NCBI GenBank assembly: GCA_025612375.1
Contig: JAAXKN010000037.1
Span: forward strand, 1-40,511
Reading direction: 5' to 3'
DNA: 40,511 bases
Source: Ignavibacteria bacterium
GTDB taxonomy: Bacteria > Bacteroidota > Ignavibacteria > Ignavibacteriales > SURF-24
The translations under genes and the position numbers were made by a program. Below the pieces are notes generated by a model that was given only the letters and a program-made list of their open reading frames with translations, was not told the DNA's origin and searched no databases. Below, one piece after another: positions 12,586 to 40,511 of the stretch. Each line of letters begins with the position of its first letter. The stretch's first letter is position 1.

Positions 12586-13419
12586 TTAATGAAGTCTAAA
12601 TACTATCGGGATGCTCATATTTACTTTTACGGCCTTGCCGTTTTGCTTACCTGCAATCCATTTGCCGGCTGTAAGGGCAACTACCCTCATGGCCTCTTCG
12701 TCGCATCCGCCGCCGATGCTCTTTAAGACTCTCATATTGCTTATGGATCCGCTTTTTTCAACTGTGAAGCTGACCATCACCTTGCCTTCAACACCGACCC
12801 TGCGGGCAAGTTCAGGGTAACGGATGTTTGCCATAAGGAAGGAAAGAAGCGCATCTTCGCCCTCGCTAAAGCGCGGCATCTCCTCGGCCCAGCTGAATAC
12901 GGTATTCTCCTCAGTGGTGTTGTCCTTTACTATATCCGTACTTACAGGCTCTTTTACGTCTATAAGGGTTACATCAATTCCGGCGTCGCTGCCTTTTCTA
13001 GTAACCATTCCGGGAATGGCATCCTTAAGCATGCTTACGTCCGGTGAATAATTCTCTATGACCTCGGCATCAGGTTTTACAAGAGGAACCATGTATTTGA
13101 ATGTGCTTACCTTAGGGATCAGCTTTGCAATTTCATCGAGGTTCAGCTGTTTGGTTACCGATGTAAGTGTTATGGCATCCAGTACAACGCTCCTTTTTGT
13201 TATTGCCGAGAGGCCGCTTTCTCCCGAATGGCTTCTTAATAAAAGCGGGGTGGTTACGCCGCCGGCAAAAAGCGTTACCGCGAGCCAGAAGGCGATCATG
13301 AGGTTCCGGGGATAAGCTTTCCTTAATACATAGGCGCCGTATGCCTTGTTACGGTTGGCAAATACAAGTTCTTCCATACCTGGAATATTATTAAAGCGGT
13401 TTTTGAGTACTGCTGTCAT
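12586..13419 (-). CDS. tonB: TonB family energy transducer
   Basis: 277-residue inner-membrane/periplasmic protein that passes proton-motive force from ExbB/ExbD to outer-membrane TonB-dependent transporters. The N-terminus has the Bacteroidota-type cytoplasmic motif ELVFANRNKAYGAYVLRKAY (17-36), followed by one membrane segment (about 40-61) and a periplasmic stretch unusually poor in the Pro-rich repeats of enterobacterial TonB. A C-terminal TonB_C domain follows (RYPELARRVGVEGKVMVSF ... VLKSIGGGCDEEAMRVV ... NMSIPIVFRL). GGAGGAAG precedes ATG 13419. No exbB, exbD or transporter gene is adjacent, so its partners are elsewhere. Confidence 0.93.
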   Translation of the reverse strand: MTAVLKNRFNNIPGMEELVFANRNKAYGAYVLRKAYPRNLMIAFWLAVTLFAGGVTTPLLLRSHSGESGLSAITKRSVVLDAITLTSVTKQLNLDEIAKLIPKVSTFKYMVPLVKPDAEVIENYSPDVSMLKDAIPGMVTRKGSDAGIDVTLIDVKEPVSTDIVKDNTTEENTVFSWAEEMPRFSEGEDALLSFLMANIRYPELARRVGVEGKVMVSFTVEKSGSISNMRVLKSIGGGCDEEAMRVVALTAGKWIAGKQNGKAVKVNMSIPIVFRLH

Positions 13420-37167: not shown

Positions 37168-37476
37168 TTATACAGCAGCAGCCTTCGTGTGCTGCGGGTG
37201 TTCTTTGGTATCCTCTGCGATACAGAGTTTCACGTGCAGCACACTGCAAACCTTTAATAAGGTTGTCACGTTAAAGCTGATTCCGTTTTCTAACTTTGAG
37301 ACCTGCTGTTGGGTCAACTCTGCCATCCGGGCAAGTTCAGATTGCGTAAGCCCATTCTTTTCTCTGACCTTTGCGAGCTCTACGGCTATTTCGAGAATAA
37401 GTCTTTCCTGTTTGTAAAGTTTTGCAAACTCCGGTTTCTTGAGTTTTTCCTGTAATTTCTTATGGTAGTTGATCAT
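37168..37476 (-). CDS. HigA-type antitoxin, XRE/Cro-C1 helix-turn-helix
   Basis: 102 residues. The helix-turn-helix region is GLTQSELARMAELTQQQVSKLENG (about 53-76), preceded by basic helices (YHKKLQEKLKKPEF) and followed by a short C-terminal dimerisation part. The protein should bind the toxin and repress the operon. The frame is open upstream to 37563, but ATG 37476 is preferred because AAAGGGT lies before it, while the upstream ATGs lack any signal and would overlap the 12-bp inverted repeat. It is the second gene, 109 nt after the toxin stop codon, in toxin-first HigBA order. Confidence 0.88.
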   Translation of the reverse strand: MINYHKKLQEKLKKPEFAKLYKQERLILEIAVELAKVREKNGLTQSELARMAELTQQQVSKLENGISFNVTTLLKVCSVLHVKLCIAEDTKEHPQHTKAAAV

Positions 37477-37513
37477 ATTATACCCTTTGTCATTTAATTC
37501 TACATCTTCGCAG

Positions 37514-37550
37514 CAGTCTGCACTAGAATTGTGAGTTTTAGTGCAGACTG
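37514..37550. repeat. 12-bp perfect inverted repeat between toxin and antitoxin
   Basis: CAGTCTGCACTA (37514-37525) and its exact reverse complement (37539-37550) flank a 13-nt loop. In the mRNA it would form a strong stem just upstream of the antitoxin ribosome-binding site. In DNA it could be an extra operator. No T run follows, so it is not a plain terminator. Confidence 0.8.
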
Positions 37551-37585
37551 TACGTACCATCATTTATAATGATGCTGCATTCGGG

Positions 37586-37966
37586 TTATGCTTCGTATTG
37601 CTTATCTAATTTCTGCCTTGTAAATCTCTGGCAGAAATCCTCACGATGAGCGATTGCCTTGTCAATCTCCTCATCTGGTACTTTATCTGTATTCTTTACA
37701 AAAGTATGGCTAAGAACGATATAGTTCCCATAACAGAAGAAATATAAGGTCCTTGTCTGTTTTCCCGATAATTTAACCCTAAGCTCATGAATGCCATCTC
37801 TTAATAAGTCGGCATAAGGTCTAGGCAGCTGTGGACCATCTGCTTCCAGTTTGTCAATAAAGGAGTATATTTTTACCTGGTCCCCCTCCTTTCTACTTTC
37901 GATAAAGGCATCTACTTCAGAATATCCTTCATGATCTTCATATGCAATTACACGATATTTGTTCAT
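37586..37966 (-). CDS. HigB-type toxin (RelE/Gp49-like)
   Basis: 126 residues. The Gp49-like/HigB core is clear: LPRPYADLLRDGIHELRVKLSGKQTRTLYFFCYGNYIVLSHTF fills about 54-98, followed by the family-typical ending KNTDKVPDEEIDKAIAHREDF. Family members are ribosome-dependent mRNA endonucleases that act when the antitoxin is degraded. The gene is first in the operon, transcribed from the promoter at 38005-38036 between two matched operator-like repeats. The ribosome-binding site before 37966 is weak, which fits low toxin expression. Activity is inferred, not shown. Confidence 0.88.
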   Translation of the reverse strand: MNKYRVIAYEDHEGYSEVDAFIESRKEGDQVKIYSFIDKLEADGPQLPRPYADLLRDGIHELRVKLSGKQTRTLYFFCYGNYIVLSHTFVKNTDKVPDEEIDKAIAHREDFCQRFTRQKLDKQYEA

Positions 37967-38182: not shown

Positions 38183-38210
38183 GCAACTTTTCTTACTATT
38201 TTGCGTCTAG
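38183..38210 (+). promoter_or_regulatory. ECF-type promoter upstream of the sigma factor gene
   Basis: GCAACTT (38183-38189), a 15-nt spacer and GTCTAG (38205-38210) resemble the ECF sigma pattern GGAACTT-N15/16-GTCTAA. It lies 24 bp before the sigma factor start codon, the usual place for an autoregulated ECF promoter. Confidence 0.5.
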
Positions 38211-38234
38211 TTAGTAAATACACTTTCAGGTCTT

Positions 38235-38744
38235 ATGCAGAATAACTCAATCATAGACTTCACCCTTACTTATAATAAGTTCAAAGAGCCTCTCTTTAAC
38301 TATGTCATAAAGATCGTCAGATCTGAAATGCTGGCAGAAGATATCGTTCATAATACCTTCATGAAGCTTTATGATAATCTCAGTCACATCAGAAACTATG
38401 AACGAATCGAAATATGGATCTTTACTACTGCCCGCAATGAGGCATTCAGCCATTTCAGGAAGAAAATCAATAAGTATGAACAGGACATAGAGCTGATAGG
38501 GGAGAAGGCTTCAACGGGAAACTTTTATAATGAACTTGAGACTAAAGAACTGATCGATATAGTAGAAAAGGAACTTGACAGAATGGATCCTTCACAAAGC
38601 GAGGCCTATTACCTGAAGGAATTCTCTGACCTTAGCTATAAAGAAATTGCTGAGATCATGAATATTACTGAAGACCTGGTGAAAAGCCGCATCTTCAAGG
38701 TCAGGCAGAAATTAAGAAAAGCACTGATAAATCTTGAACGATAG
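38235..38744 (+). CDS. ECF-subfamily RNA polymerase sigma factor
   Basis: 169 residues. Region 2 is visible as EMLAEDIVHNTFMKLYDNLSHI ... IEIWIFTTARNEAFSHFRKK (about 31-77), and region 4 as MDPSQSEAYYLKEFSDLSYKEIAEIMNITEDLVKSRIFKVRQKLRKAL (about 116-164). It has the two-domain ECF layout without regions 1 and 3. CAGGT precedes the ATG at short spacing. It is first in an operon with the anti-sigma factor (39 nt gap) and the TonB_C lipoprotein. A GCAACTT/GTCTAG motif upstream suggests that it drives its own transcription. The ECF group cannot be named from sequence alone. Confidence 0.93.
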   Translation: MQNNSIIDFTLTYNKFKEPLFNYVIKIVRSEMLAEDIVHNTFMKLYDNLSHIRNYERIEIWIFTTARNEAFSHFRKKINKYEQDIELIGEKASTGNFYNELETKELIDIVEKELDRMDPSQSEAYYLKEFSDLSYKEIAEIMNITEDLVKSRIFKVRQKLRKALINLER

Positions 38745-38783: not shown

Positions 38784-39251
38784 ATGAACTGTGATGATAT
38801 TAAAATGATGATAAGCGAATATCTCGATAATGAACTCCCAAAAGAAAAAGACGGAATTCTCTTTACTCATCTTTCTTCCTGCTCTGAATGCCGTGAGGAA
38901 TTTAAGTCCCAGAATATAATTCAGCACCAGGTGAAACTTCATAAAAAACAGGTGCCGGACAGGCTTGAAGAGCGCGTCTTTAATTCAATAAAGCAAAAGC
39001 AGAACCAGCCTTTACAAACCTGGCTTACCAGGCCGATGCCTGTTTACGTCAATTACCTTTTGGGAATTGTAATTATCCTTATCGCACTGTTTTCATACAT
39101 GCAGATTAGCGCACTGCGCTACGACCTGAATAATTTCCAGGACAGATACGACACTGCTATTGAAAGAATTCAGATCCAGTCGCAGCAGATGAACTTAATG
39201 ATGAACAATATGCCGGCTGTCAGGATAACCAGCAATCCGGCAAAATTATAA
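38784..39251 (+). CDS. Anti-sigma factor with zinc-finger (ZAS/zf-HC2) domain
   Basis: 155 residues, inner-membrane partner that holds the sigma factor inactive. The cytoplasmic N-terminus has the anti-sigma zinc motif His29-x3-Cys33-x2-Cys36 (HLSSCSEC) with Cys3 as a possible fourth ligand. One membrane helix follows (about 88-106), then a short periplasmic C-terminus of coiled-coil type (RYDTAIERIQIQSQQMNLMMN). AGAGGA lies about 7 nt before the ATG. Location next to the sigma gene supports the role. The signal could be sensed by the periplasmic tail or by redox at the zinc site (inference). Confidence 0.88.
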   Translation: MNCDDIKMMISEYLDNELPKEKDGILFTHLSSCSECREEFKSQNIIQHQVKLHKKQVPDRLEERVFNSIKQKQNQPLQTWLTRPMPVYVNYLLGIVIILIALFSYMQISALRYDLNNFQDRYDTAIERIQIQSQQMNLMMNNMPAVRITSNPAKL

Positions 39252-39267: not shown

Positions 39268-40511
39268 ATGAAAAAAGCTTTTTTTATCCCGGTTATTTGT
39301 GCGCTCATATTTTATTCGGGATGCAAAACTGATGCACACAAAAACACAAACAATCATGAAATCAATTATGGTATTTCACAAACCTATGACTTTTGGCCGA
39401 CATACGATGATATGCTTGATGAAAAGTCATCTGCCAGGGTTGATACTGCACTATTCAGACTTCAGATGAATGAACTGCTTCCGCCTGAAAAGATATTTGA
39501 ACTCTTCGGTTCGGGTTATCACAATTTCTACCTTCAGCTTGTTATAAAGGAAAATGAATCAAGTTTCCGCTTGTGTACTGATGCTTCTTTCTGGAGAGGC
39601 CGGGGTGAGGATACTGAAGATATGCTTTATACCGATTCTAAAGGTCAGTTCCCCCGGCACAGGCCTTCTGTAAGATATTCGAAGAATACTGATAAAAAAA
39701 TTACACATGAGAATGTTACTGATAACGGCAAAATTTCTGTCTTTTATTCCATTTATCCCGATGCAAAAAAAATATTTATTGTTAAGCCGGGAATAAAAAA
39801 CGGCAAACCGGTCAGAAGCAGCAAACTTTATGAAATAAGTGTCTTTATCGGAAAAGATAAAAAGATCGCGCGCCCCTGGAGTATAAAGGAAGTAAATATT
39901 TCAAAATATCTGGATCATATTTATGAGAAAAATGTTGACAGGTTCTGGTACTCTACGGGACTGGCAGCTGTAAGCATTGATGGTTTTGAATCAGTACGCA
40001 AAGCAATTTCATATCCTGAAGAAGCCTTGAAAAATGGTGTGACAGGAAGAGTAATTGTTGAGATCTTTGCTGATGAAGAAGGCAATTTTGCAGGCTATCA
40101 GCTATTAAAAGGCTTAGGCTACGGCTGCGATGAAGCTGTTATTAAGGCAATTAAGGATCTAAAACCTAAAACCTATCCGACCGGACAGAGAAGCTCCATT
40201 ATTGTTCCCTTTGAATTCGGTCCTCCGCAGACAACACCCATCGATTTGGCTGTACAGCTTTTTGATGTTAATCCTGACCCGAATGTTTATAACAATATCC
40301 GTCTCGGAATTATTAATAAGAACAAAACCGATAAGAACCTGGACCAGAAATACTTTGTGTATGTATATATAGACAAACACCTTGTCTTTCAGACCTTATG
40401 TAACGGTATTTCAAAATCTGATGCCCAGCAGTTCTACTGGTTCCGCTTTCAGCCCAATAAACCAGGGACATATGACTATACTGTTTATATAGACCCTGAG
40501 AACAGGCTTAA
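39268..40511 (+). CDS. Lipoprotein with internal TonB C-terminal domain (3' end outside window)
   Basis: At least 414 residues, no stop codon before the window ends. The signal ends FYSGC, so Cys19 is the likely lipidation site; tyrosine at -3 is unusual but tolerated in this lineage. Residues 20-240 form a domain I do not recognise (VDTALFRLQMNEL, LFGSGYHNFYLQLVIKE and a beta-rich stretch). A TonB_C-type domain occupies about 246-315 (SYPEEALKNGVTGRVIVEIFADEEGNF ... LGYGCDEAVIKAIKDLKP). A further beta-rich domain with YVYIDKHLVF follows to the edge. AAGGGGAG lies about 8 nt before the ATG, 16 nt after the anti-sigma stop, so it belongs to the sigma operon. Unlike a real TonB it has no membrane helix. 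Confidence 0.82.
   Translation, partial: MKKAFFIPVICALIFYSGCKTDAHKNTNNHEINYGISQTYDFWPTYDDMLDEKSSARVDTALFRLQMNELLPPEKIFELFGSGYHNFYLQLVIKENESSFRLCTDASFWRGRGEDTEDMLYTDSKGQFPRHRPSVRYSKNTDKKITHENVTDNGKISVFYSIYPDAKKIFIVKPGIKNGKPVRSSKLYEISVFIGKDKKIARPWSIKEVNISKYLDHIYEKNVDRFWYSTGLAAVSIDGFESVRKAISYPEEALKNGVTGRVIVEIFADEEGNFAGYQLLKGLGYGCDEAVIKAIKDLKPKTYPTGQRSSIIVPFEFGPPQTTPIDLAVQLFDVNPDPNVYNNIRLGIINKNKTDKNLDQKYFVYVYIDKHLVFQTLCNGISKSDAQQFYWFRFQPNKPGTYDYTVYIDPENRL

Follow-up and report, generated by a model that had tools for sequence, protein, structure and literature searches.

A conserved ECF sigma/anti-sigma/TonB_C triplet in the Ignavibacteria and a possible contact between its TonB_C protein and the anti-sigma tail

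What is a TonB C-terminal (TonB_C) domain doing on a predicted lipoprotein encoded beside an ECF sigma factor? In the TonB energy transducer this domain is the coupling end, and an N-terminal inner-membrane helix contacts ExbB/ExbD. The window analysed here spans all 40,511 bases of contig C37 from a draft genome of 5.2 Mb. Its right end is occupied by three genes of the same orientation, which encode an ECF sigma factor, an anti-sigma factor and a lipoprotein. A first-pass annotation of this DNA had argued that a lipid-anchored TonB_C could not transduce energy in the normal way, and had proposed instead an envelope sensor that touches TonB-dependent receptors or the peptidoglycan. The closest named full-length relatives are Melioribacter and other Ignavibacteriales MAGs.

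The third gene (39268-40511, forward strand) opens with ATG and runs out of the window at the contig end, so that 414 of about 431 residues are present; the gene is cut some 18 codons short, and its relatives extend by 17 residues (NDSNRENNTVRGTLVVK) and a stop. Its product is a predicted lipoprotein, with a signal peptide (39268-39324, +) ending in the lipobox YSG-C19, whose cysteine is shared by all 13 aligned family members, and with no transmembrane helix besides the signal peptide. The TonB_C domain occupies residues 247-317 (40006-40218, +) and scores 43.4 bits against a Pfam cut-off of 24.6, with TIGR01352 also above its own cut-off. In an AF2 model built on the family alignment (overall pLDDT 72), residues 241-317 form helix-helix-strand-strand-helix-strand, the order of TonB_C, and VIA fold comparison of the model gives TonB C-terminal domains at Z 8.7 (9ddz) and 8.2 (2gsk). 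A CARDB-type Ig-like domain follows at residues 326-413, its last strand missing (40243-40506, +); it falls below the Pfam cut-off (E 0.0047), and is identified by a PDB profile match to 2l0d at 6e-7 and by a beta sandwich at residues 327-409 of the model (Z 7.4 to 2l0d, 7.2 to 3idu). The family profile of the lipoprotein, compared with PDB sequences, likewise matches TonB sequences and CARDB. The architecture first described for this protein, a lipobox without a transmembrane helix and a TonB_C domain in mid-protein with extra domains on both sides, is thus borne out, including the fold that structure prediction had been expected to settle. Without the N-terminal helix, this protein cannot serve as a normal energy transducer. 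An internal contrast is provided by an ordinary TonB of 277 aa elsewhere in the window (12586-13419, -), which has an NKxYGAYxLRK start, an N-terminal helix and TonB_C.

The domain ahead of TonB_C (residues ~46-210; 39403-39897, +) is a divergent TonB_C-like domain, as judged from the AF2 model and a two-step profile link. The model has pLDDT 80-94 across most of the domain, a disordered insert aside, and is confidently folded at ~55-103 and 165-210. Compared directly with TonB_C, the profile of this domain in the window's family is negative (probability 4%), but it matches the N-terminal domain of the wider, shorter third genes (E 5e-13), which in turn matches TonB_C (E 2e-17). Among the matches listed by a VIA fold search there was nothing specific for the N-terminal domain, the list being filled by the other domains, and this says nothing on novelty. 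Because of the two-step link, and because the third genes of several relatives hold two to three recognisable tandem TonB_C copies, these genes are best described as encoding tandem TonB_C proteins, with the window's family having one copy strongly diverged and CARDB added.

Variation across the third-gene family also bears on the lipid anchor, which had been the basis of the original argument. Many members are lipoproteins, in others the signal peptide is of the ordinary kind, and a membrane helix is seen in a few; many are tandem TonB_C proteins with no membrane anchor. The anchor is therefore common but not general, which argues that nearness to the membrane may help the role of the third protein and is not the mechanism itself. 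Other architectures were seen as well. Third genes with three TonB_C copies, in open frames of 389-576 aa, occur at five loci (L123, L129, L133, L135, L143), some followed by further TonB_C genes, and the third gene of locus L112 joins TonB_C to a domain of the CarboxypepD_reg type, which resembles the extension at the N-terminus of SusC receptors.

The first gene of the operon (38235-38744, +) encodes a sigma factor of 169 aa consisting of regions 2 and 4 only, as expected of an ECF sigma (~170 aa); Sigma70_r2 (1.5e-9) and Sigma70_r4_2 (1.6e-13) are both above their Pfam cut-offs. An orthologue, 47-70% identical, is present in every full-length relative. Upstream lies the operon promoter, with the sequence GCAACT-N14-GCGTCT ahead of AGTTAGTAA (38183-38217, +), found through genome searches and conservation. 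Its core, GCAACT-N14-GCRTCT at 38183-38208, is the sole exact match in the 5.2 Mb genome. The extended form is found once per genome, always upstream of the sigma gene, in 9 of 9 genomes with the full-length triplet, and is absent from seven other genomes searched alongside, which lack the full-length family or have divergent copies. Within the taxonomic order of the window (below, "in-order"), a site with at most two mismatches precedes 43 of 58 sigma genes, as against 0 of 58 control windows, and with one exception these 43 sites lie 50-66 bases from the gene. A relaxed form gives 0-3 sites per genome, mostly at triplets. With sites upstream of the sigma gene and few elsewhere, the sigma factor is very probably autoregulatory. 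Almost no further exact sites were present in the genomes searched, weaker sites being possible, and by this measure any further regulon would be small at most. Just upstream of the operon, at 37168-37966 on the reverse strand, is a divergent pair of genes (126 aa and 131 aa, with helix-turn-helix) that by eye resembles HigB/HigA, a putative toxin-antitoxin system.

Since the strong promoter of the sigma factor precedes the operon, the third gene is very probably one of its outputs. It could even be output and nothing else, an envelope or receptor-blocking product of the sigma response that never contacts the anti-sigma factor, with any conserved feature of the anti-sigma tail serving to bind something else, such as a protease. 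We consider this explanation rather unlikely. It leaves unexplained why the gene order is never broken, and also the TonB-box-like strand that anti-sigma tails carry in systems with a TonB_C neighbour; both observations are set out below.

The anti-sigma factor (155 aa; 38784-39251, +; Pfam zf-HC2 3e-7, above cut-off, and family alignment) has a zinc-binding N-terminal domain (C3, H29, C33, C36), one transmembrane helix (residues ~91-106; 39054-39101, +, from sequence and hydropathy) and a periplasmic tail of about 45 residues. The zinc motif HX3CX2C, formed by H29, C33 and C36 and joined by C3, together with the single helix makes it a ZAS anti-sigma, so that both operon partners named at the outset, ECF sigma and ZAS anti-sigma, are confirmed above Pfam cut-offs. 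Past the helix, the tail consists of a coiled-coil-like stretch and then a short motif; the peptide in the window is ...LMMNNMPAVRITSNPAKL, and its conserved TonB-box-like motif is MPAVRI (residues 143-148; 39210-39227, +). Elsewhere the motif takes forms such as LPxVEV(xG), LPTVTVKP and LPAVEVRG. All 15 aligned family members have P144, and the motif is found in 62 of 65 in-order anti-sigmas although the rest of the tail varies.

Several further features of these proteins were recorded. The zinc motif HX3CX2C is kept in only 16 of the 65 in-order anti-sigmas, and most relatives have lost the zinc ligands while keeping the tail motif and the TonB_C neighbour. In one family (f10; loci L176, L178, L195, L196, L206, L216 and L222) the tails carry two successive copies of the motif (LPGQVVYSMPTQVVYP is one example), which might allow two strands to be bound. 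Ten other loci (L191, L194, L199, L201, L203, L208, L209, L212, L213 and L215) represent another type of sensor in this class: the anti-sigma-like ORF is 387-441 aa long, much of it extracytoplasmic, and no TonB_C gene adjoins it.

All full-length relatives have the three genes in the order sigma, anti-sigma, lipoprotein. A survey of 391 genomes of the class was run with the anti-sigma profile alone in order to reduce circularity, the profile itself being built from triplet members. It yielded 49 further in-order anti-sigma matches, which were fetched and their downstream gene inspected: a TonB_C gene lies directly downstream in 48 of 48 testable cases, the 49th stopping at a contig end. When loci found through TonB_C are included, the count is 63 of 65, the exceptions being one contig end and one broken third gene. 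These data support the sigma/anti-sigma/TonB_C triplet as a conserved unit and not a local arrangement, and the survey did not show the third gene to be unrelated to the sigma pair, the outcome that would have undone the first-pass reading. The long architecture of the window is rarer, its N-terminal domain occurring in 10 of the 391 genomes, all in the same order. Among the matches listed by a phylum-wide search with the profile of the tail-bearing anti-sigma, none outside the class was full-length, weak evidence that this type may be restricted to the class. At the locus with the broken gene (L050, 320-4209) the third gene is split into two ORFs, and across the sigma gene from it there is another copy of the TonB_C lipoprotein, so that duplication and decay of the lipoprotein both occur.

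Does the tail motif go with the TonB_C neighbour? A nine-column motif matrix was trained on in-order tails and applied, with a threshold of at least 7, to 71 anti-sigmas from outside the order, nearly all belonging to other families of the class. The threshold was reached by 23 of 27 anti-sigmas with a TonB_C neighbour and by 0 of 44 without one (AUC 0.98), or 22 of 26 against 0 of 40 once four negatives without downstream room and one positive without a nearby sigma gene are left out; these figures overstate the association because few independent events lie behind them on the sigma tree, where the TonB_C state changes about four times (two to four independent pairs, with no contrast opposed).

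The motif also resembles the TonB boxes of Bacteroidota. We scored the segment before the plug domain of TonB-dependent receptors from the window's own genome with the same matrix minus its proline column, and 10 of 28 receptors scored at p<=0.05, against 1.4 expected. The scores peak on the receptors' TonB boxes, and the best stretches (SLSGVVVTA, LKGVEVTA and TLGAVVVQG) are TonB-box-like. For comparison, VDEVVV is the TonB box that has been tested by experiment in Bt1763, a SusC protein of Bacteroides (PMC7782687). Where a TonB_C gene adjoins an anti-sigma factor that ends in a TonB-box-like strand, the simplest explanation is that one binds the other, and most simply, then, the anti-sigma tail would bind the TonB_C protein of the neighbouring gene.

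A structural prediction of this contact was attempted with AF2 on a natural in-frame anti-sigma/TonB_C pair (locus L147), modelled as one chain with the stop read as Gly, on a 70-row alignment, to ask by a criterion fixed beforehand whether the tail would turn into a strand. The TonB_C domain folded (pLDDT 98), but the motif stayed a loop (block pLDDT ~55-81), a negative result from what is a weak test (single chain, a linker of ~55 residues, no contacts output). The prediction thus lends no support to the contact, which we infer from the motif and its neighbour.

A TonB-box-like tail might instead be read by the ordinary machinery. The anti-sigma tail would then mimic a TonB box and be pulled by energised TonB, while the lipoprotein competes for the site and sets a threshold. 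The genome does hold ordinary TonB proteins (at locus L005 and at 12586-13419 of the window), and many of its roughly 43 receptor plug domains come with similar boxes. Within the class, however, the motif tracks a dedicated TonB_C gene, for which an ordinary TonB would by itself create no need; we regard this energy-linked sensor as quite doubtful. Direct sensing of TonB-dependent receptors or peptidoglycan by the lipoprotein, as originally proposed, appears improbable to us. TonB_C can in principle bind receptor TonB boxes, and CARDB or CarboxypepD_reg domains could bind other parts of the envelope, but no receptor gene was recognised beside the triplet when the ORF lists of relatives were inspected by eye, and Pfam and TIGR domain searches found no peptidoglycan-binding domain. 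The evidence points instead to the TonB-box-like tail of the anti-sigma factor as the partner of TonB_C.

We therefore favour, with a probability of about one half, a self-contained envelope switch of the RpoE-RseA-RseB kind in which the anti-sigma tail is gripped, as an added strand, by a TonB_C protein that is not energised. The ECF sigma would be held by the membrane anti-sigma, and the third gene would supply an exported TonB_C protein, here lipid-anchored, that transduces no energy. To the sheet of this protein the periplasmic tail would be added as a beta strand, as TonB binds a TonB box. Such binding would set the stability of the anti-sigma, most likely by shielding it from regulated proteolysis as RseB does RseA. 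The protective sign is borrowed from FoxA/FoxR, where the signalling domain of FoxA, bound to the C-terminus of the anti-sigma FoxR, protects FoxR from proteolysis (PMC11637429). Removal of the TonB_C protein by some event in the periplasm, the presumed signal, would free the sigma factor, which would mainly transcribe its own operon, and the resulting supply of TonB_C protein would reset the switch. In a variant that we think unlikely, the system would sense free TonB boxes by titration. The lipoprotein would partition between the TonB boxes of outer-membrane receptors and their mimic on the anti-sigma tail, and the cell would read box exposure as TonB demand and respond by making more or less of a TonB_C decoy, one that may also close the receptors.

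On the preferred reading of a tail-gripping switch, our observations suggest that sigma/anti-sigma signalling has taken over TonB_C, otherwise known for coupling in an energy transducer, as a module for ligand binding, and that the TonB box of a receptor has been copied onto an anti-sigma factor. The TonB_C proteins of this class that lack a membrane anchor, for which general "TonB family protein" models give the only matches, would thereby gain a testable function. In the open papers searched we found no description of such a system.

Parts of this arrangement have counterparts in known systems. With the TonB energy transducer the window's protein shares the TonB_C domain itself, placed mid-protein, whereas its family has no inner-membrane helix or proline-rich linker, is lipid-anchored or secreted, and carries extra domains. 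TonB_C also forms the outer part of a signalling protein in BlaR1-like M56 peptidases, although these are single polypeptides with a protease domain and no sigma/anti-sigma operon; one such M56-type membrane peptidase (HEEAH, by eye), with a C-terminal TonB_C, is encoded in the same genome (locus L004, contig C21, 1420-2676). A Bacteroidota anti-sigma system likewise connects the envelope to an ECF sigma, but there one protein spans both membranes, and the part of that report drawn on here mentions no TonB_C partner (PMC13088901). In FecI-FecR-FecA and FoxI-FoxR-FoxA, as in our proposal for the window, an ECF sigma is under an anti-sigma of the inner membrane, and contact with an envelope protein protects the periplasmic C-terminus of that anti-sigma (PMC11637429). 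The window differs in that its anti-sigma is of the zf-HC2 and not, by Pfam, of the FecR family, and in that the TonB-box-like element is on the anti-sigma and not on a receptor; no TonB-dependent receptor with an STN domain was recognised beside the triplet, as judged by eye from the ORFs of relatives, the window's contig ending inside the third gene. RpoE-RseA-RseB of E. coli (MucA/MucB in Pseudomonas) comprises an ECF sigma, a single-helix anti-sigma, a periplasmic third protein and an autoregulated promoter. The window operon has the same parts, with an exported third protein, but that protein is TonB_C (with CARDB) and not of the RseB family by Pfam search, the anti-sigma tail is short and TonB-box-like, and the regulon seems limited to the operon.
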